Positions 1-5,774 of a stretch of 64,000 nt of DNA are shown in pieces. The notes beneath the pieces are model-generated. The model saw only the letters and a list, made by a program, of their open reading frames with translations. It was not told the DNA's origin and made no database searches. Positions within the stretch are counted from its first letter, which is position 1. Every line of letters begins with the position of its first letter. The DNA is from Alcanivorax sp. (GTDB taxonomy: Bacteria > Pseudomonadota > Gammaproteobacteria > Pseudomonadales > Alcanivoracaceae), in assembly GCA_017794945.1 (NCBI GenBank), contig CP051239.1, positions 1,912,692 through 1,976,691 of the forward strand, read 5' to 3'. Position numbers and translations under genes: made by a program.

Positions 1-37
1 TGAGTTCGGAAGTGTCGAGAGTCATAACGAACGGAAG

Positions 38-128
38 ATACAGGATGCAGGATACAGGATGAAGCGCGCGCACGGCCGTGCGGCGGGGCAGGCCTTTACC
101 CGCGCCTGTATCCTTCATCCTGTATCCT
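38..128. repeat. Palindromic repeat upstream of pdxH
   Basis: A perfect 16-bp inverted repeat (49-64 against 113-128, arms built on AGGATACAGGATGAAG) encloses 48 bases. The left arm is preceded by a second direct copy of ATACAGGATG (38-47 and 52-61). The element ends about 57 bases before pdxH. It has no T-run, so it is unlikely to be a terminator, and it looks like a dispersed repeat or small non-autonomous element. Copy number elsewhere in the genome cannot be seen here. Confidence 0.6.
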
Positions 129-184
129 GAATCCATAATGGATAGCTACAATCCCCGCATCACCGAATTGCCCAAGGACACCCC

Positions 185-814
185 ATGAAAGACGTACGCC
201 AGGAATACCACGCCCCCGGCCTCACCGAAGCGGACCTGCTGGCGGACCCGGTGGAACAAGCCCGCCAATGGGTCGACGACGCCATCAACGCCGAGCTGCC
301 CCTGGCCAACGCCATGACCCTGGCCACAGTCTCCGCCGACGGCCGCCCCTCCAGCCGCGTGGTGCTGCTCAAAGGCATCGAAGACGGCGGCTTCGTCTTC
401 TTCACCCACTACGACAGCCGCAAAGGCGACGACATCGCCGCCAACCCCAACGTCTCCTTCGTCATGTTCTGGGGCCCCTTCGACCGCCAACTGATCGTCA
501 ACGGCCGCGCCGAGAAAATCCCCGCCCAGCAATCCCGCGACTACTTCGCCAGCCGCCCGCGGGGCAGCCAGCTCAGTGCCGCCGTCTCGCATCAGAGCCG
601 GCCCGCCAGCCGTGAGCAGTTGGAGGCGGATATGGCTGAGCTGGCCGAGCAATATCCGGACGGTGAAAGCATTCCCATGCCGGAGACTTGGGGTGGTTAC
701 CGCATTGTCCCTGAAGAGATTCAGTTTTGGCATGGGCGGCCGAGTCGGTTGCATGACCGGTTTCGCTGTATCAGGGATGGCAATGACTGGACTCGCGAGC
801 GCCTGGCCCCCTGA
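185..814 (+). CDS. pdxH: Pyridoxamine 5'-phosphate oxidase
   Basis: This FMN enzyme oxidises pyridoxamine or pyridoxine 5'-phosphate to pyridoxal 5'-phosphate, the last step of vitamin B6 synthesis and salvage, in the cytosol. The 209-residue product is close to the usual length of about 215. It has the FMN/phosphate-binding block RVVLLKG (58-64), SRPRGSQ (123-129) and the long C-terminal signature around WGGYRIVPEEIQFWHG (169-184) followed by RLHDR, and it ends in RLAP as the E. coli enzyme does. It is intact and stands alone, on the left flank of the low-GC cassette block. The family assignment is secure. Confidence 0.97.
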   Translation: MKDVRQEYHAPGLTEADLLADPVEQARQWVDDAINAELPLANAMTLATVSADGRPSSRVVLLKGIEDGGFVFFTHYDSRKGDDIAANPNVSFVMFWGPFDRQLIVNGRAEKIPAQQSRDYFASRPRGSQLSAAVSHQSRPASREQLEADMAELAEQYPDGESIPMPETWGGYRIVPEEIQFWHGRPSRLHDRFRCIRDGNDWTRERLAP

Positions 815-835
815 TCCACGACCGCATTTAATACC

Positions 836-860
836 GCTCCTGCGTGTGCCGTAGGAGCGA
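836..860. repeat. Hairpin with GTAGGAGCGA repeat core
   Basis: GCTCCT (836-841) pairs with AGGAGC (853-858) around an 11-base loop just after pdxH. The right arm carries GTAGGAGCGA, which recurs downstream of the histidine kinase (35482) and, as a related form, downstream of glnG (57141). The shared position at gene 3' ends suggests a REP-type extragenic repeat rather than a regulatory site. There is no T-run. Confidence 0.4.
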
Positions 861-1013
861 GTGTGCCCCTCCACGAGCCGGATAGCCGCATTTGTGCCCT
901 GCGGAATTTTCTGGTTTTATCTTACTTCATCGAAATATTAATAATGTGATAACGCGCCAACTGACCATAGGATGCTTGAGTTGGCGTGCAAGGCTATTAA
1001 AACAAGGATCGTG

Positions 1014-1406
1014 ATGGCTGAGCGGCCCCCCAAGGAAGTTGTCGATACTCGAATCCGAAACCGGATCATGGGGTATCTTCAGCTCGTATCATCTGCGGCG
1101 CAGCAGAAAGATTGTCAGTGCCGCGTTCCCTATGTGAATGTGCCCGCCGAGCTCATATGTGGCTGGGAAGATTGGATGCCTGTCGAAGAGGGCGCTCAAG
1201 AGTTCACTCCGCCTGTTTACTCAGCTGAAGAGTACGAGGCAATAAAAAAGTATGGCTGTGCGTGGGGAGCCGTCGCTGCTGCGACATCAGAGGAAATGCC
1301 GTCACTTGAGGAGTTTATTGGAACGTCGGAGTGGGAGCGGCTGAAACAAGCAGCGGAGGAAGCCTTGAACGTTTTTCAGCGCCGTGGGGTATTCGAAGAA
1401 ACGTGA
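1014..1406 (+). CDS. Hypothetical protein in first cassette
   Basis: I do not recognise this 130-residue acidic, soluble protein. The ATG at 1014 is preferred because AAGGA lies seven bases upstream; an in-frame ATG at 972 has its GGA box touching the start codon. No signal peptide or membrane segment is visible. Cysteines cluster near residues 33-35 (KDCQC) and the C-terminal half is helix-rich and charged. Base composition is lower in GC than pdxH and resembles the other genes up to 4.65 kb. It is the first ORF of the cassette block and probably shares a cassette with the next ORF, since no clear attC lies between them. Confidence 0.6.
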   Translation: MAERPPKEVVDTRIRNRIMGYLQLVSSAAQQKDCQCRVPYVNVPAELICGWEDWMPVEEGAQEFTPPVYSAEEYEAIKKYGCAWGAVAAATSEEMPSLEEFIGTSEWERLKQAAEEALNVFQRRGVFEET

Positions 1407-1492
1407 AGGCGTTCTGGCAAGAAGCTTGGCTGGATATTTTGAACCTCTTTAGTGGCCTTAAACCGTCCGTTTAGATCAAGCGCTAAAAGTCT

Positions 1493-1834
1493 ATGAAAAC
1501 AGAGCACGATATAAAGTTATTGCTGTATGCGCAGCAAGCGCTCTTGGGCGAAGTGGCTCCACAGTTTAGGGCTGTGTCATTTAAGCTCTCTGCGGATGGC
1601 GAAGACTTGGTTGCTCGTTTCATATTTGATGGTGAGCCAACGAAAGAGGCCAAGGAAGTTGCTGGCGTTGCGATAACAAATTTGCTTGCAAACTACTCAA
1701 AAAACCATCGTAGTTACAAAGAAGAAATGTTGGGGTGCCCATACCCGCAAAAGATGGAGCACCTTCCGCTATTGGCCTATCTCCGAAATGAGGACGATTG
1801 GGGCACATGGACGAAACTGTACAAAACAACTTAA
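1493..1834 (+). CDS. Small hypothetical protein, possibly immunity-like
   Basis: This is a 113-residue cytosolic protein. It opens with a helix (LLLYAQQALLGEVAPQFRAV), continues with beta-prone segments (ARFIFDGEPTKEAKEVAG) and has a conserved-looking CPYPQKMEHL motif near residues 81-90. That pattern reminds me of small orphan or immunity-type proteins found in polymorphic-toxin and integron contexts, but I cannot name the family from memory with confidence and no toxin partner is visible. The stop codon runs straight into the attC-like site at 1829-1885, as expected for cassette cargo. Confidence 0.6.
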   Translation: MKTEHDIKLLLYAQQALLGEVAPQFRAVSFKLSADGEDLVARFIFDGEPTKEAKEVAGVAITNLLANYSKNHRSYKEEMLGCPYPQKMEHLPLLAYLRNEDDWGTWTKLYKTT

Positions 1835-1885
1835 AAAGAAAAGGCAGTCGGGCGCATAAATGCGCCGCTGCTTTTGACGTTAAGC
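1829..1885 (+). other. attC-like recombination site 1
   Basis: The site is 57 bases. R'' is a degenerate ACTTAAA at the stop codon of the preceding ORF; R' is GTTAAGC (1879-1885), a full match to GTTRRRY. Between them, arms AAAAGGCAG and CTGCTTTT and inner arms GGGCGCAT and ATGCGCC fold into an imperfect stem with unpaired bases, as attC sites do when single-stranded. Confidence 0.7.
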
Positions 1886-1900
1886 TCTAAAGGAGACTAG

Positions 1901-2500
1901 ATGATAGAGTTTTGTCCTCACTGTTGTAACAGAGCCAAGCAAGAGATGGTGCATGAGCAATATCATCGATCTATTGCTTGGGGAGTAGCCGATGGCGAAG
2001 AAGATGAATGCGAGGGGACATACCTCATCTATAAATGCACTACCTGTGATGAAATTCTTGTTTACTACCATCTCTTTGATTTTCCGCCATCACTTGTTTA
2101 TCCCGATATAAGTCTGGATGACTCCGTCCCTGATAGAATTCAGAAAATATATGGCGAGGCTGTAAGAATTAAGCACCTCTCGCCGAACTCGTTTGCGGTA
2201 CAGATTCGACGGGCTCTTGAAGCTCTTTGTCTAGACCGCGGAGTTCAAGATGGTGTTTTGGCGCGAAAGCTAAAGGTCCTGAGTGAACGGGGAGAAATAC
2301 CAAGCATTCTTTCTGAGGCGGGCGACATACTCCGTTTGATTGGAAACGTTGGTGCACACGCTAATGAAATTGACGTGCATCCTCTACAAGCTATGGCCAT
2401 TGATGATTTCTTTCAAGCTATAGTTGACTATGTTTATGTTTCGCCAGCTCGAATTCAGCATTTCAACGCCATGTTGCAAAAATATAAATCTAAGGCTTAA
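1901..2500 (+). CDS. DUF4145 domain protein (HEPN-like)
   Basis: The 199-residue cytosolic protein has an N-terminal zinc ribbon, CPHC (5-8) paired with CTTC (46-49). The DUF4145 core follows: an IYGEAVR helix near 83-89, the RRALEALC helix (103-110), and the hallmark ILRLIGNVGAHANE (143-156), then a C-terminal DFFQAIVDYVYVSPAR segment. DUF4145 proteins belong to the HEPN group and often occur near restriction and defence genes; whether this one is an RNase is unknown. The ribosome-binding site AAAGGAG lies about 8 bases upstream. The stop codon is embedded in R'' of the next attC, so this is the sole cargo of its cassette (1880-2560). Confidence 0.85.
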   Translation: MIEFCPHCCNRAKQEMVHEQYHRSIAWGVADGEEDECEGTYLIYKCTTCDEILVYYHLFDFPPSLVYPDISLDDSVPDRIQKIYGEAVRIKHLSPNSFAVQIRRALEALCLDRGVQDGVLARKLKVLSERGEIPSILSEAGDILRLIGNVGAHANEIDVHPLQAMAIDDFFQAIVDYVYVSPARIQHFNAMLQKYKSKA

Positions 2501-2566
2501 CAAGGCGGTGCTTTCGGACAAATTTTCCGCTGCGTTCCTAATTTGTCGCAGAGCGCGCCGTTAGAA
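2495..2566 (+). other. attC-like recombination site 2
   Basis: The site is 72 bases and one of the clearest in the array. R'' is GCTTAAC (2495-2501, a match to RYYYAAC, containing the TAA stop of the DUF4145 gene) and R' is GTTAGAA (2560-2566). Inner arms CGGACAAATT and AATTTGTCG pair with one extrahelical base, and AAGGCGGTGC pairs loosely with GAGCGCGCC. Confidence 0.85.
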
Positions 2567-2577
2567 GAGTCAATCTG

Positions 2578-2862
2578 ATGAGAGTAAATCGGAAAATCGT
2601 TGGTTCTCTATTAGTTCTAGTGGCACTTTCTACGGTTCTCTTTCACTATATGGGTAACTTTCTGGCTATCGACTCGTGCTTGGATTCAGGGAGAGCTTTC
2701 AATTACAGCTTAGGCGAATGCGGCAGTGCTGAGCACTATGAAACAAAATCATACGTAGCGAGATTCTGGTGGTTAATTTTAGTCACCTCGGCAAGTGCTA
2801 TTGTCGGGGTTTATCTTCTAACAAAAAGCTCAAAGGCGACGCCAAAAGGCGGCGCGCTTTAG
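2578..2862 (+). CDS. Small membrane protein, cassette cargo
   Basis: The product has 94 residues and two predicted membrane helices, at about residues 8-27 (IVGSLLVLVALSTVLFHYMG) and 64-82. The loop between them contains two cysteines and would be periplasmic or extracellular if the N-terminus is inside. I recognise no family. The ATG lies 12 bases after attC 2, and the 3' end reads into attC 3, so the basic tail (KSSKATPKGG) is encoded by the recombination site itself. That is unusual but known for short cassettes. Composition is AT-rich relative to the flanking chromosome. Confidence 0.65.
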   Translation: MRVNRKIVGSLLVLVALSTVLFHYMGNFLAIDSCLDSGRAFNYSLGECGSAEHYETKSYVARFWWLILVTSASAIVGVYLLTKSSKATPKGGAL

Positions 2863-2875
2863 CTTGGCGTTAGGT
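2816..2875 (+). other. attC-like recombination site 3
   Basis: The site is 60 bases. R'' is TTCTAAC (2816-2822) and R' is GTTAGGT (2869-2875). Stem arms AAGCTCAAAGGCG and CGCTTTAGCTT pair with an extrahelical C, closing on GACGCC and GGCGGC. It overlaps the last 16 codons of the upstream ORF. Confidence 0.75.
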
Positions 2876-2879
2876 GCTT

Positions 2880-3209
2880 ATGATAGAGACGGTGCTTGTT
2901 TCACTATGGCTGAGCATTTGTGCGTATTGGATATTCGTGCATGTCAAGTTTTACACAGCACTTAAGCGTCATGAGCCCGAGTTGTATAAAGAGAATTCTC
3001 GAGTTTCTCCGACGAAGTCCGCAACGGGTTTTGGGTATGTCGACTTTGCCCTTTCTGGTGGTCACAAGAAGTCTGAAAATAAAAATGTAATAAAATCCGG
3101 CGAGAGGCTAGTTCACGCCTATGAAGTCAGGCCCAAAGTGTTGGGCTACGGCTTCTTTTTTATGGCTATCTGGTTCGGAGTTTCAATGTTTCTTTGGGGT
3201 AACGAATGA
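2880..3209 (+). CDS. Small membrane protein, cassette cargo
   Basis: The product has 109 residues, an N-terminal membrane helix (about 3-23, ending in FVHVKFYTALKRHEPELY) and a C-terminal one (about 90-107, GYGFFFMAIWFGVSMFLW), with a polar cytosolic middle. The arrangement vaguely resembles UspB-like two-helix proteins, but I would not assign that name. The ATG at 2880 lies five bases after R' of attC 3, leaving almost no leader; an in-frame GTG at 2874 would lie inside the recombination site. The stop is five bases before R'' of attC 4. Confidence 0.65.
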   Translation: MIETVLVSLWLSICAYWIFVHVKFYTALKRHEPELYKENSRVSPTKSATGFGYVDFALSGGHKKSENKNVIKSGERLVHAYEVRPKVLGYGFFFMAIWFGVSMFLWGNE

Positions 3210-3213
3210 AGAC

Positions 3214-3291
3214 ACCTAACCAGTCCATGAAATGCGCTCCCTACGGTCGCCGGATCTCGTTTCACTCGGCCGTTTATGGCGGGCGTTATGT
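3214..3291 (+). other. attC-like recombination site 4
   Basis: The site is 78 bases. R'' is ACCTAAC (3214-3220, perfect RYYYAAC) and R' is GTTATGT (3285-3291). CCATGAAATGCG near R'' pairs with CGTTTATGG near R', with unpaired bases, and the middle is a variable GC-rich terminal structure, as in long attC sites. Confidence 0.8.
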
Positions 3292-3306
3292 GTTTATGAG
3301 GGCTGC

Positions 3307-3870
3307 ATGAGCGAGAAGCTGGAACCATTCATTCTGTATAGAGAAAAAGCGGAAAAGCTCTTGGCAAGTACATTTGCAAGAGAAATGGCAAAACCCACTG
3401 GGATCGATATTAGCTGGACTGAAGAAGGCCAAGTTGCTGTTCATCGAGGACCAGGCCAGGAGTCTATTGACGCGTATCTTCTGACTTTTCGGTTCTTTAT
3501 CCAGGGAAACGAAAGCATTTCCTTTCGAAACATGGGGGCACATTTTCGTGCGAGGATCAATGATGAAGACCTTGTTCATAGGTTCGAAGAGGCGAGAGAA
3601 GCTCTTAATAGATTTCTTGACGGTGACTCACATTTCAATGTTAAGGGCATGGTCAGTCGCCGTCAGTTAATGGAAGTATTTATTTTTGGTGACCTTAGTC
3701 ATGCTAACTACCAAGATAAAAGAAGCAGCTATAAGTCATGGATGGCCGACGAGTTTATGGCCGAGCTTATGAAAAATGAGTTCAGGCTCATTATTGGAAA
3801 GTGCTTAATTGTTATTGCTCATGTAGATAAGCTATGCAAAGAGGCAATTGAGCGGTATGGAAACACATAA
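3307..3870 (+). CDS. Hypothetical protein, cassette cargo
   Basis: This is a 187-residue soluble protein with no family I can recognise. The ATG at 3307 follows attC 4 by 15 bases; upstream in-frame starts lie inside the recombination site and are rejected. The N-terminal third is helical and charged (LEPFILYREKAEKLL). A central stretch, FRFFIQGNESISFRNMG, looks beta-rich, and the C-terminal 50 residues are strongly helical with an FRLIIGKCLIVIAHVDKLC segment. No signal peptide is present. The TAA stop lies inside R'' of attC 5, which fixes the gene as single-gene cassette cargo. Confidence 0.7.
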   Translation: MSEKLEPFILYREKAEKLLASTFAREMAKPTGIDISWTEEGQVAVHRGPGQESIDAYLLTFRFFIQGNESISFRNMGAHFRARINDEDLVHRFEEAREALNRFLDGDSHFNVKGMVSRRQLMEVFIFGDLSHANYQDKRSSYKSWMADEFMAELMKNEFRLIIGKCLIVIAHVDKLCKEAIERYGNT

Positions 3871-3939
3871 CAAGGAAATTAACTACGCGCCTGCGGCGCC
3901 GGACGCTCGTACCTCGCGCCGGTTATTGCGGCGTTAGCC
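3865..3939 (+). other. attC-like recombination site 5
   Basis: The site is 75 bases. R'' is ACATAAC (3865-3871, one mismatch to RYYYAAC) and R' is GTTAGCC (3933-3939). The centre GCGCCTGCGGCGCC...GGACGC...GCGCCGG is strongly self-complementary. It lies directly on the stop codon of the preceding ORF. Confidence 0.75.
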
Positions 3940-3961
3940 GGGGCTATGGGTAGGTGGTGTA

Positions 3962-4645
3962 ATGAAATCAGCCAAAAAAAAGACAACGTCCAAGAACATT
4001 CCTGATCTTTTCGGGAATATTGAGGGGTTGAAGCGGCATTCATTTATGTGCGTGTTCGTTCCTGAGCCATCACTCTCGCCAGCTGATAGACGGATTCGAG
4101 CCTGGCTTCTCCATACAATAGCCAGTGCTTCAAGACATTACACAAGAGCTCGAGAACTAGTCGAACTCCAAGATAGCGCGGATCAGTCACGAGATGGTGG
4201 CGCAATATTTCACATTCTTGATGTGTCAGAGCAGATTGAAGATTGCGTAACGGCGACGTATCGAGCTTGTATGGCAATCAAAAGGTTAGACTCCTGTGAG
4301 GAGGCACGAAAATTCTCCAGCGACTATAAAAAGTCGATTGAAGAGCTTCGCTCAATAAGAAATCAATTTGACCACATGCATTCCCAGGTTGCCGCCGCGG
4401 AGACAGGAAGTGGGCCAATATCTATCGTCTTCGGCGATGAGGGAAAAGCTATCAAATTCAGAAGATTAAACATGGCGACTCGCGACTTGCGTGCTCTAAT
4501 TGATGGGGTATACCGAGTTGTAGCAAGTTTGTACCCAGCCTTTAATGTGAATTCGAAGAAAGAAGCGGGAGGCCCAATCAGACTGGCTATGACTGCATCG
4601 ATTACAGTCACTGATGCCGATGGCAATACGAGAGAGATCGGCTAA
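3962..4645 (+). CDS. Hypothetical protein with HEPN-like Rx4H motif
   Basis: The 227-residue cytosolic protein is mainly helical in residues 40-145. The second long helix pair ends in EELRSIRNQFDHMHSQV, where R133-N-Q-F-D-H138 fits the Rx4-6H motif with a polar residue after the Arg, the catalytic signature of HEPN ribonucleases. The C-terminal part is beta-prone (LAMTASITVTDADGNTREI). The lysine-rich N-terminus (KSAKKKTTSK) is not a signal peptide. No adjacent nucleotidyltransferase (MNT) partner is visible, so a classic HEPN-MNT toxin-antitoxin pair is not supported. The stop codon falls in R'' of attC 6. Function is inferred from one motif only. Confidence 0.7.
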   Translation: MKSAKKKTTSKNIPDLFGNIEGLKRHSFMCVFVPEPSLSPADRRIRAWLLHTIASASRHYTRARELVELQDSADQSRDGGAIFHILDVSEQIEDCVTATYRACMAIKRLDSCEEARKFSSDYKKSIEELRSIRNQFDHMHSQVAAAETGSGPISIVFGDEGKAIKFRRLNMATRDLRALIDGVYRVVASLYPAFNVNSKKEAGGPIRLAMTASITVTDADGNTREIG

Positions 4646-4687
4646 CAATGCCATGCACGCTACAAGCGCGTGATGGCGGCGTTAGGT
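4640..4687 (+). other. attC-like recombination site 6 (array end)
   Basis: The site is 48 bases, the shortest and the last found. R'' is GGCTAAC (4640-4646) and R' is GTTAGGT (4681-4687). GCCATGCACGC pairs with GCGTGATGGC with one extrahelical base and a short loop. No further attC was found downstream before the 5.2 kb lipoprotein gene. Confidence 0.78.
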
Positions 4688-4726
4688 GGCAAGGCCTCGA
4701 AACTCTCTGAGGCCCGCCTTTCAACC

Positions 4727-4927
4727 TCAGCTACTACAATCTCGAATGATCGACAGCCGTCCGTCTTCAACCGTAATCGATACCGGTGTGTCGATGGAGA
4801 AGCCGGCTTGTTCGAGCCAGAGACCTTTCAGAAGAATGAATGGTGCCACGCGGTTCCCGCTGGAGGGAGTACGTTTTGGGATATAGTCCCAGTGGCCTTT
4901 GCGGACTTTGAGGGTGCGGTTGTTCAT
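4727..4927 (-). CDS. SymE family type I toxin-like protein
   Basis: The product has 66 residues. The N-terminus NNRTLKVRKGH, then PFILLKGLWLEQAGF, then TPVSITVEDGRLSII matches the SymE pattern (RxLKV, P-I-LKG-WLE-AGF, G-V-V-V--G-L-I), an AbrB-fold protein known in E. coli as an SOS-induced, sRNA-controlled toxin that affects RNA and the nucleoid. The start at 4927 is chosen because AGGAG lies 7 bases upstream; an in-frame ATG at 4948 would place that box inside the coding sequence. The gene runs against the cassette array and lies right after its last attC. No LexA-type box was confirmed. Confidence 0.75.
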   Translation of the reverse strand: MNNRTLKVRKGHWDYIPKRTPSSGNRVAPFILLKGLWLEQAGFSIDTPVSITVEDGRLSIIRDCSS

Positions 4928-4948
4928 GGTTGTGCTCCTGTTGTGCAA

Positions 4949-5053
4949 TTTCTAGGTTGCGTAAGTAGGGCGGTCGGGAGGCTAGAAACAGCAACAGGTA
5001 CTGCTCCGACTATTTCCTGCAAGCAGGTGTTCTATTCGTCGGACCTCCCGACC
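4949..5053. ncRNA. Structured leader region of symE-like gene
   Basis: Nested inverted repeats are visible: GGTCGGGAGG (4972-4981) with CCTCCCGACC (5044-5053), CCGAC (5006-5010) with GTCGG (5038-5042), and CCTGC (5016-5020) with GCAGG (5023-5027). They could fold into one long stem covering the presumed 5' leader of the SymE-like gene. In E. coli the symE leader is covered by the antisense RNA SymR, so an antisense or structured RNA here is plausible, but no promoter was confirmed. Confidence 0.4.
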
Positions 5054-5077
5054 ATTACATTCCCGGATTTCAGGCAC

Positions 5078-5110
5078 AAAAAAACCGCAGTACTTCCGGG
5101 ATGCGGTTTT
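5078..5110 (-). terminator. Rho-independent terminator, better on minus strand
   Basis: AAAACCGCA (5081-5089) pairs with TGCGGTTTT (5102-5110). Read on the minus strand the stem is followed by seven T residues; on the plus strand only four follow. It lies upstream of the SymE-like gene, so it may end a short minus-strand transcript or a plus-strand antisense RNA. Confidence 0.6.
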
Positions 5111-5120
5111 GCCGGCCTGC

Positions 5121-5150
5121 TAGAGTTTCTAGGCTCCTTCTGAAACTCTA
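5121..5150. repeat. Perfect 9-bp inverted repeat
   Basis: TAGAGTTTC (5121-5129) pairs with GAAACTCTA (5142-5150) across 12 bases, 45 bases upstream of the lipoprotein gene at 5196. It could be an operator or a leader hairpin. It is the third structured element in a 200-base gene-free stretch. Confidence 0.45.
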
Positions 5151-5195
5151 CCTGGATTTGCGATGCTGTCAATATGGACAGTGTGAGGAGGAATC

Positions 5196-5774
5196 ATGGC
5201 TTTTCCCAAACGCGGTGCAACGCTCACCGGAACCCTGTCAGCAAGCTTGCTAGCTATCTCCTTGATTGCCGGCTGCTCGGACCCGTCCTCGGACGCTGGG
5301 GACAAGGCGGCGTCGTCGACTCAGCCGTCCGCCGAGGCACCGGATGATTCAGGCAAACAGGAAGGTGCCGCTTCCTCCGGGCAGACCCGGGGCGGTGATG
5401 GCTCGGAGATTACGCTGAACGCCCTGACTGAGGAGGACATGCGCGAGGCCAGCCTTGCCGGCGAGCTGGGTTGCTCGTTCACCACGGAGGACGGAGAGGT
5501 GTTGCTGATTGCCATGGGCAATGTGGCTTCCTCCGATGCGGCACAGGGCGTGGTCAAGGTCGCCGGTTATGTGGAGCGCGTGTCGGCGCCTGGCGGCTTC
5601 GATGGCATGACGGCGGCGCCGACCTTCAGTGGTAAGGGCAAGACGGTTCACATCGAGGTCACCGGGGAGCCCGCCGAAGGCGGGGAGTCGCCGCCAAGGC
5701 CGGCAATGTTGACGTATGACCGGGCCGACGGCGCTCAGCGCGACTGGCAGGGCGAGTGGCGTTGCGGGCCTTAA
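5196..5774 (+). CDS. Hypothetical lipoprotein
   Basis: The 192-residue product has a lipoprotein signal peptide: basic MAFPKRGATL, a hydrophobic stretch, and lipobox LIAG with acylated Cys27. A low-complexity Ser/Asp/Glu/Ala linker (28-75) follows, then a globular domain (about 80-190) with a single Cys pair (GCSFT near 96 and WRCGP at the end) that could form a disulfide. It is probably a periplasm-facing outer-membrane lipoprotein. The ribosome-binding site GAGGAGG lies about 6 bases upstream. I recognise no family name. It may be cotranscribed with the membrane protein 9 bases downstream. Confidence 0.8.
   Translation: MAFPKRGATLTGTLSASLLAISLIAGCSDPSSDAGDKAASSTQPSAEAPDDSGKQEGAASSGQTRGGDGSEITLNALTEEDMREASLAGELGCSFTTEDGEVLLIAMGNVASSDAAQGVVKVAGYVERVSAPGGFDGMTAAPTFSGKGKTVHIEVTGEPAEGGESPPRPAMLTYDRADGAQRDWQGEWRCGP

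Follow-up and report, generated by a model that had tools for sequence, protein, structure and literature searches.

The block of captured foreign genes behind pdxH in the 64,000-nucleotide stretch of DNA analysed here (contig CP051239.1, hereafter the window) is the remnant of an integron whose integrase has been lost, and its relatives carry further copies of the attI element at other places in the chromosome, most of them with no trace of intI just upstream. Our results show that the six sites pointed out in an earlier note are attC sites of integron cassettes, and that the block is a CALIN (cluster of attC sites lacking an integrase), as that note had proposed. We also conclude that it is a decayed sedentary integron, since in five of seven named relatives intI or a remnant lies behind pdxH, and the window keeps a diverged attI. 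The scattered attI copies could explain where such stranded gene blocks come from, although they may be either attI-only copies or lost platforms.

Results

The six sites are co-oriented attC sites

Six sites are present within 2.9 kb, all in one orientation (Table 1). A blastn search of the block against plasmids hit 12 records, all 12 on five of the six sites, at 79–89% identity with attC-like stretches of plasmid integrons, while the sixth (4640-4687) matched two genus genomes over about 43 bases. A covariance model built from nine plasmid attC sites (R1), run with filters off on both strands of the window, gave five hits at E<=10, all of them among the six sites, and missed site 2. This model is not independent of the window, however, because its training loci were fetched for matching it, and three of the nine training sites are the close partners of window sites 1, 3 and 5 (84–89%). 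Without those three, a sequence profile gave four hits at E<=10, all among the six sites (E 0.001, 0.03, 0.3 and 3), and a third model without partners (R3) gave four hits, two of them among the six sites (E 0.003 and 0.9) and two at chance places. A strict motif-and-fold attC finder, which was too narrow and noisy, found two of the six sites plus one other hit on the plus strand, and four hits on the minus strand, two of them antisense to the same sites.

As predicted for recombination by IntI, each of cassettes 2-6 has an R'' box complementary to its own left end, by 4, 6, 5, 8 and 5 bases, respectively, beyond GTT/AAC. All 20 other pairings give 1-2 bases, and the true pairing is the best of 120. 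In contrast, site 1 has a mutated R'' and no matching left end was found upstream (TTAAGT in window positions 1-1829). The ab initio cassette finder also lists chance cassettes over the whole window, five linked on the plus strand (two of them starting inside ORFs) and three linked on the minus strand. The GC content is 46.9% against 64.2%. No intI was found in the window (tblastn with the IntI of the genus genome G011, lowest E 1.0), and no integrase passes the IntI cut-off in the genome (Alloalcanivorax, one contig), where the best TIGR02249 match reaches 88 of the 265 bits required.

Table 1. Features of the pdxH locus in the window.
Feature	Position	Strand	Observations
pdxH	185..814	+	Chromosomal anchor gene of the integron platform in the genus; Pfam PNPOx_N and PNP_phzG_C
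attI relic, diverged	864..1001	+	Core GTTRG has become ATTAA (window reads ATTAAA); nhmmer E 5e-10; model R2 E 2.4e-9 (window 879-990); alignment
Cassette 1	998..1879	+	ORFs 1014-1406 and 1493-1834, may be two cassettes fused by attC loss; left end not matched by its R''; ORF 1014-1406 weakly like the SCO4402 family, below cut-off
attC 1	1829..1885	+	R'' mutated (AAA for AAC); blastn 89% over 55 bases to Pseudoalteromonas pNC201; R1 31.8 bits, E 2e-4, partner in training
Cassette 2	1880..2560	+	ORF 1901-2500 (199 aa), Cys-rich N terminus plus DUF4145 (Pfam E 1.3e-13); PD-T7-4-like (PADLOC E 9e-17, residues 5-192)
attC 2	2495..2566	+	blastn 79-88% to Vibrio pectenicida, Shewanella, Pseudoalteromonas and pKAZ2; missed by R1 and R3
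Cassette 3	2561..2869	+	ORF 2578-2862 (94 aa), unknown, membrane-like by eye; no family over cut-off
attC 3	2816..2875	+	blastn 83% to the stretch just behind a class D beta-lactamase gene in Providencia; R1 33.2 bits, E 9e-5, partner in training; R3 without partner 24.7 bits, E 0.003
Cassette 4	2870..3285	+	ORF 2880-3209 (about 109 aa), unknown, membrane-like by eye; no family over cut-off
attC 4	3214..3291	+	blastn 80% to the Salinivibrio kushneri large plasmid; R1 16.5 bits, E 0.45
Cassette 5	3286..3933	+	ORF 3307-3870 (187 aa), unknown; one 30% match, in a Bradyrhizobium plasmid
attC 5	3865..3939	+	blastn 87% to the site between a zinc-ribbon gene and qnrVC4 in Enterobacter kobei; R1 33.9 bits, E 6e-5, partner in training
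Cassette 6	3934..4681	+	ORF 3962-4645 (227 aa), unknown; no plasmid match; no family over cut-off
attC 6	4640..4687	+	91% and 88% to genus genomes G006 and G005; R1 15.2 bits, E 0.89; R3 14 bits
symE/sRNA-Xcc1 unit	4682..5185		Right end of the block; conserved to about 5185 in genus copies; no attC seen at its right border
symE-like type I toxin gene	4727..4927	-	Reversed; Pfam SymE_toxin 47.3 bits, cut-off 29, on the frame 4727-4948
sRNA-Xcc1	4964..5053	-	Upstream of symE; Rfam RF02221 55.5 bits, gathering 53

Contrary to the earlier note, which considered the cargo to be entirely of unknown function, one cassette encodes a PD-T7-4-like protein and a symE/sRNA-Xcc1 unit ends the block, although cargo searches gave little beyond DUF4145 and SymE. 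The symE unit could not be recognised as a gene cassette, since R1 has no hit to the right of 4687 and there is no CTAAC-type R'' in 4601-5700 apart from that of site 6. The locus is not fixed in relatives. Over 13 genus genomes, the window's own included, a DNA search with 880-5200 found only attC sites and the symE unit in the other genomes.

The block lies at the integron platform of the genus

Behind pdxH, the match to intI spans HMM positions 3-312 in G011, while there is a 135-aa remnant in the ALOHA MAG (G004), one of 83 aa in A. mobilis (G001), one of 15 aa in A. gelatiniphagus (G003) and scraps in A. marinus SY10-13 (G012). The element whose diverged homologue lies at the left end of the block starts about 94-105 nt upstream of the intI match, divergent from it, in five genomes (G001, G004 and the genomes G014, G029 and G031), and a LexA-like box with at most one mismatch lies at exactly -41 in 10 of 59 copies. 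Nevertheless, of 19 family genomes with intI over the cut-off, only three (G014, G029 and G031) have this element beside it, and G024, G036, G038, G039 and G041 have intI but no copy; their IntI may use another attI.

Scattered attI copies received cassettes

The attI element occurs in 13 of 13 genus genomes, with 2-9 copies each, in 31 of 46 genomes of the family, and in 6 of 194 of the order, all six in the family. A DNA search with window 830-1012 over the 46 family genomes had given mostly short weak matches, and plasmids hold no copy of the guaA-type element at E<=0.01. Of the 59 copies studied, 54 show no intI trace just upstream (27 of them are of the guaA/tetR type). Among the 47 copies with a core, 25 passed a test for a first-cassette junction at the G|TT core with 7-mers, against a permuted mean of 3.3 (max 11); 19 passed with 8-mers against 0.95 (max 5), and 12 with 9-mers against 0.07 (max 2), in 300 permutations. 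Of these 25 copies, 22 lie away from pdxH. Of 32 attC hits near copies, 30 are on the element's strand, and the other two are antisense to the same sites. Orthologous copies share their flank to about the core and then diverge, and copies group by locus (mean identity 0.735, against 0.650 with shuffled labels, max 0.677). On the other hand, 22 of the 47 copies with a core fail the junction test, 12 of 59 lack a GTT[AG] core, and in one group of three copies (N3) the shared flank runs through the core, so no cassette sits there.

Discussion

We propose, with good confidence, that the block is the leftover cassette array of a sedentary chromosomal integron of Alloalcanivorax at pdxH. IntI once joined circular cassettes to attI and later to attC sites, at the G|TT crossover and in one orientation; in this lineage intI was deleted and the attI core decayed, in an order that we can only infer, so the array is frozen. 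In the genus the same attI element exists at several chromosomal places, and many of these copies also received cassettes at their cores. The simplest reading is that one IntI served scattered attI sites in trans, although this catalysis, and how the copies arose, are inferred. Only G011 of the 13 genus genomes has intI over the cut-off, and there an insertion-sequence-like stretch abuts it, so action in trans is never seen in one genome with an intact platform. The window's own attI core is lost, and the left end of cassette 1 does not match its R''. We consider it somewhat more likely than not that Alloalcanivorax and some relatives ran a distributed integron, in which one integrase acted in trans on a set of attI sites held behind pdxH and guaA, beside a tetR-type gene, and elsewhere, many with cassettes of their own and some beside defence genes, and that the integrase was then lost again and again, leaving several CALINs per genome.

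Other explanations were considered. It remains possible, though we think it less likely, that the extra attI copies are relics of several complete integrons, each of which lost its own intI, without attI-only copying. Four of the eight copies of class C and one single copy keep a LexA-like box at -41, which fits lost platforms better than attI-only copies (one such box, in G004, is at another offset), and G006 has a 45-aa intI remnant at a second place, C1:579608. However, 26 of the 27 guaA/tetR-type copies have a conserved GTAAGGGCTTACTT-like stretch, in most of them with a terminator-like hairpin, where intI and its promoter should be (by a motif search allowing 4 substitutions, read with the alignment), and none of the 27 shows an intI remnant in the 700 nt upstream.

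It is unlikely that the repeated element is the attachment site or hot spot of another recombinase, for example of islands at guaA. Copies of the guaA type carry the 3' end of this gene, and a large Dsr1-like gene lies between two copies, but the homology and fixed spacing to intI, the attC-bearing cassettes in the same orientation and the R'' matching at the core argue against it. Even less likely is an off-target landing of cassettes at pdxH (an attG event by an integrase elsewhere) where there was never a platform. Off-target insertion is one of three proposed origins of CALINs (PMC8618304) and no intI passes the cut-off in this genome, but five of seven named relatives carry intI or remnants behind pdxH and the window keeps an attI homologue there. 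That the six sites are chance hairpins between small genes, as the weak or missing scores of some of them under R1 and R3 might suggest, is excluded by their homology to attC sites and the R'' self-match, and their single orientation also argues against it.

CALINs are common and their origin is debated, with degraded integrons, off-target insertion or rearrangement as candidates (PMC8618304, PMC9024848). Extra attI copies could explain both this origin and the recurrence of CALINs at fixed loci in Xanthomonas, and they would go unseen because attI sites are poorly described outside class 1 and not detected there by IntegronFinder (PMC9024848). They would also give one genome several separate places where cassettes can land. 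To our knowledge, and only within the open literature searched, such a set of attI copies at distant chromosomal loci is new, although attI-like secondary sites have been mentioned.

The block resembles other CALINs in its co-oriented attC sites with cassettes and no intI nearby or over the cut-off in the genome, but here the origin is visible. As in the sedentary chromosomal integron at ilvD in Xanthomonas (PMC12444791), there is a fixed chromosomal anchor, intI loss, different cassettes per species and a symE/sRNA-Xcc1 unit; what differs is the presence of several attI copies per genome, most without detectable intI and many with cassettes joined at them, whereas for the Xanthomonas CALINs at recurrent loci we found no attI explanation in the text consulted. 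In the complex class 1 integron SGI1 more than one attI site is also loaded with cassettes (PMC7056807), but there both sites lie within one complex integron, while here the copies lie at several distant chromosomal loci and are shared between species. At attG sites (Loot et al. 2024, as cited in PMC12444791) cassettes are likewise found outside the integron, but the sites described here are homologues of the intI-adjacent attI. Finally, in delta-attI cassettes (PMC12901181) attI sequence also occurs away from its platform, but there attI fragments (14-18 nt for attI1) replace attC inside class 1/2 cassettes, while here about 147 nt stand at chromosomal loci.

An array of attC sites behind pdxH

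The stretch analysed lies in a single-contig genome of 3.14 Mb whose completeness is listed as 86.47%, so that the absence of a gene elsewhere in this genome is fairly but not fully secure. The genus is Alloalcanivorax, the nearest named pdxH being that of A. venustensis ISO4 (95% identical). Behind pdxH lies a block of low GC content (46.9%, compared with 64.2% for positions 5300-64000), which holds six hairpin sites on the plus strand, each at or near the end of a small gene. The features discussed here are collected in the table.

Features of the window and of related loci
Feature	Sequence	Coordinates	Strand
pdxH	window	185-814	
diverged copy of the attI element	window	864-1001	
inverted repeat of the attI relic	window	947-992	
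low-GC block	window	998-4681	
ORF with DUF4145, PD-T7-4-like	window	1901-2500	
attC 2	window	2495-2566	plus
attC 3	window	2816-2875	plus
attC 6	window	4640-4687	plus
symE/sRNA-Xcc1 unit	window	4682-5185	symE reversed
guaA locus with two attI copies	same genome as the window, C1	642000-660000	
LmuB-like and PDC-S31 genes around an attI copy	A. mobilis (G001), contig C12, locus L105	6026-9222	
first cassette at a solo attI, LigB-family gene	same genome as the window, C1:1530.2k, locus L185	774-1571	
insertion-sequence-like stretch	A. profundimaris (G011), locus L073	from about 11609	

Our results show that the six sites are real attC sites. A blastn search of positions 900-5200 against plasmids gave 12 records, and all 12 places fall on five of the six sites. 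Two of the partners are the site between a zinc-ribbon gene and qnrVC4 in Enterobacter kobei and the stretch just behind a class D beta-lactamase gene in Providencia. The remaining site, attC 6, has no plasmid match but matches two genomes of the genus, G006 (91%, 44 bases) and G005 (88%, 43 bases). A covariance model built from nine plasmid attC sites of other genera (R1) gave five hits over the 64 kb, on both strands, with filters off and at E<=10, and all five (E 6e-5, 9e-5, 2e-4, 0.45 and 0.89) coincide with sites proposed in the earlier note, while attC 2 was missed. The training of this model is not independent, since the plasmid loci had been retrieved because they matched the window, and three of the nine sites are 84-89% identical to attC 1, 3 and 5, and a fourth is 80% identical to attC 5. 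When the three closest sites were removed, a sequence profile gave four hits at E<=10, all four at sites of the earlier note (E 0.001, 0.03, 0.3 and 3). A further model (R3), built from eight sites without close partners (four from plasmids and four from other loci of the genus found with R1), also gave four hits, namely attC 3 (E 0.003), attC 6 (E 0.9) and two chance places (E 4.3 and 8). In the whole genome, where 150 of 1956 candidates were scored, R1 gave four hits at E<=10, the three best being in this array.

A sharper test is provided by the R'' box, which in a cassette inserted by IntI is complementary to the cassette's own left end and not to that of its neighbour. For cassettes 2-6 the match beyond GTT/AAC is 4, 6, 5, 8 and 5 bases, and all 20 other pairings among them give 1-2. 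In the wider 6 by 6 table, the R'' box of attC 4 also matches the start of the symE unit (5 bases) and the mutated R'' box of attC 1 matches the start of cassette 2 (3 bases). An ab initio cassette finder detected 5 linked cassettes in 901-5300 against a mean of 0.01 and a maximum of 1 in 200 resamples, although two of the five starts listed are inside ORFs and are probably due to chance, and the whole window shows 3 linked cassettes on the minus strand.

Absence of the integrase and the pdxH locus in relatives

Pfam searches identified three tyrosine recombinases in the genome, but none of them passes the IntI model (TIGR02249, cut-off 265 bits; best score 88), and the IntI of a neighbour gave nothing below E 1 in the window. 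The block meets the definition of a CALIN, which requires at least two attC sites (PMC9024848), and the earlier note was right in proposing a CALIN.

In five of seven named relatives, intI or a trace of it lies behind pdxH, on the other strand. In A. profundimaris (G011) it covers HMM positions 3-312 without stops, whereas a 135-aa remnant is present in the ALOHA MAG (G004), 83 aa in A. mobilis (G001), 15 aa in A. gelatiniphagus and scraps in A. marinus SY10-13; none was seen in A. venustensis ISO4 or A. marinus NMRL4. In A. profundimaris a stretch that by eye resembles an insertion sequence abuts the start of intI. Thus, pdxH is most likely the ancestral platform, with intI lost in several lineages. 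The window keeps a diverged copy of the attI element (nhmmer E 5e-10; E 2.4e-9 with R2, a sequence-only model of the element), whose core GTTRG now reads ATTAA. Although its core is lost, this relic keeps a long inverted repeat whose arms differ on both sides from those of relatives (GCGCCAACT/AGTTGGCG). Over 13 genomes of the genus, the window's own included, the DNA search of 880-5200 found only attC sites and the symE unit in the other genomes.

Cassette cargo

One ORF of the array carries DUF4145 (E 1.3e-13) and matches PADLOC PD-T7-4 over residues 5-192 (E 9e-17), a defence role being a prediction. Right of the last attC there is a reversed symE (47.3 bits, cut-off 29) with sRNA-Xcc1 upstream (55.5 bits, gathering 53). 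This pair is the most widespread integron cassette in Xanthomonas, where it is also reversed (PMC12444791); here it has no recognisable attC on its right. The unit is multi-copy in the genus, and RF02221 was detected in 13 of 20 symE-related loci scanned (18 hits, with some overlap). sRNA-Xcc1 sits as a 5' leader of symE, which may be its regulator. The other ORFs have no family over cut-off.

Copies of the attI element at other chromosomal loci

Upstream of intI in the relatives lies a conserved element of about 147 nt ending in CCTAATACCTG/TTAG (the slash marks the recombination point), with unrelated DNA after the core. By our arithmetic, it starts about 94-105 nt from the intI match, divergently, in five genomes, two with intI remnants (G001 and G004) and three with intI over the cut-off (G014, G029 and G031). 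A LexA-like box, taking CTGTN8ACAG as the motif, sits at exactly -41 with at most one mismatch in 10 of 59 copies, and intI is SOS-induced (PMC8618304). However, of 19 genomes of the family with intI over the cut-off, only those three have the element beside it.

The same element occurs elsewhere. The R2 model found 2-9 hits at E<=0.01 in each of 13 genomes of the genus, 67 in all, some of them partial. At least one hit is present in 31 of 46 genomes of the family, and of 194 genomes drawn from the order 6 have one, all six of this family. The genome carrying the window has 7, the window's included. We retrieved 60 stretches holding 59 distinct copies, which by their upstream DNA fall into a guaA/tetR group (27), a pdxH group (9, of which G006:C1:579608 is not behind pdxH), class C (8), class D (4), N3 (3), two pairs and four singletons, one of which (G005:C34) lies behind pdxH. 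An intI trace within 700 nt upstream, as far as the retrieved sequence extends, is seen for 5 of 59 copies. In the genome carrying the window, one copy begins at the end of guaA (GMP synthase, 822 bits); guaA is followed there by an attI copy with a broken core, a 1269-aa Dsr1-like (SIR2 domain) gene and a second attI copy with a cassette. In A. mobilis a LmuB (Lamassu)-like gene lies before, and a PDC-S31 (DUF2971) gene after, a guaA/tetR-type attI copy, so that defence-like genes sit at these sites.

Are the copies used? R1 gave 32 hits at E<=5 in the 60 stretches, of which 30 are on the strand of the element and two are antisense to the same sites, although some are one site seen in two overlapping stretches and many score weakly. 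For the 47 copies with a GTT[AG] core (12 of 59 lack it), we asked whether the complement of the first bases after the core recurs as R'' downstream. With 7-mers, 25 of 47 pass against a mean of 3.3 (max 11) when starts are exchanged between copies 300 times; with 8-mers, 19 against 0.95 (max 5); and with 9-mers, 12 against 0.07 (max 2). Interestingly, 22 of the 25 are away from pdxH. On contig C14 of A. profundimaris the core reads GTTAAATCT and the R'' box AGATTTAAC lies 390 nt on. In the genome carrying the window, which is without IntI, junctions pass at C1:651.7k, 1136.6k and 1530.8k, and the first cassette at a solo attI in this genome encodes a LigB-family aromatic ring-opening dioxygenase, a plausible metabolic cargo. 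Orthologous copies were also compared. In class C and E pairs the shared flank ends between -24 and +10 of the core (class D: -17 to +30) and different DNA follows, and in class C shared flank resumes about 2-6 kb on. In N3 the flank runs through the core, so these copies are empty or not attI.

Origin of the copies

The copies look old, since those at one locus in different species are more alike (mean 0.735) than with shuffled labels (0.650, max 0.677), and copies at different loci of one genome are no more alike than strangers (0.623 against 0.621). Four of the eight class C copies and some others keep the LexA-like box, so they may be full platforms that lost intI, and G006 has a 45-aa intI remnant at a second locus. 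In contrast, 26 of 27 guaA/tetR-type copies have at that place a GTAAGGGCTTACTT-like stretch, mostly with a terminator-like hairpin (a loose motif, read with the alignment), and none of the 27 shows an intI trace, so attI alone, or attI with the guaA end, may have been copied, although we cannot decide between these origins for all copies.

IntI, present in relatives and lost here, would recombine the folded attC strand with attI between G and TT, giving same-strand arrays. With several attI copies in the chromosome, one IntI could load each of them, an action on solo copies that we infer from the junctions, and on loss of intI each would become a CALIN.

Comparison with known integrons

The array is in itself a further example of the CALINs already known. 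What appears to be new is the scattered attI family around it, which may represent a concrete and testable source of CALINs. In our literature searches, which mostly did not cover subscription papers, we found no report of attI copies scattered over a chromosome and holding cassettes. Integrons have typically one attI (PMC9024848). Two attI sites are known within the complex class 1 integron of SGI1 (PMC7056807), and attI-like secondary sites are mentioned for off-target recombination (PMC10127599).
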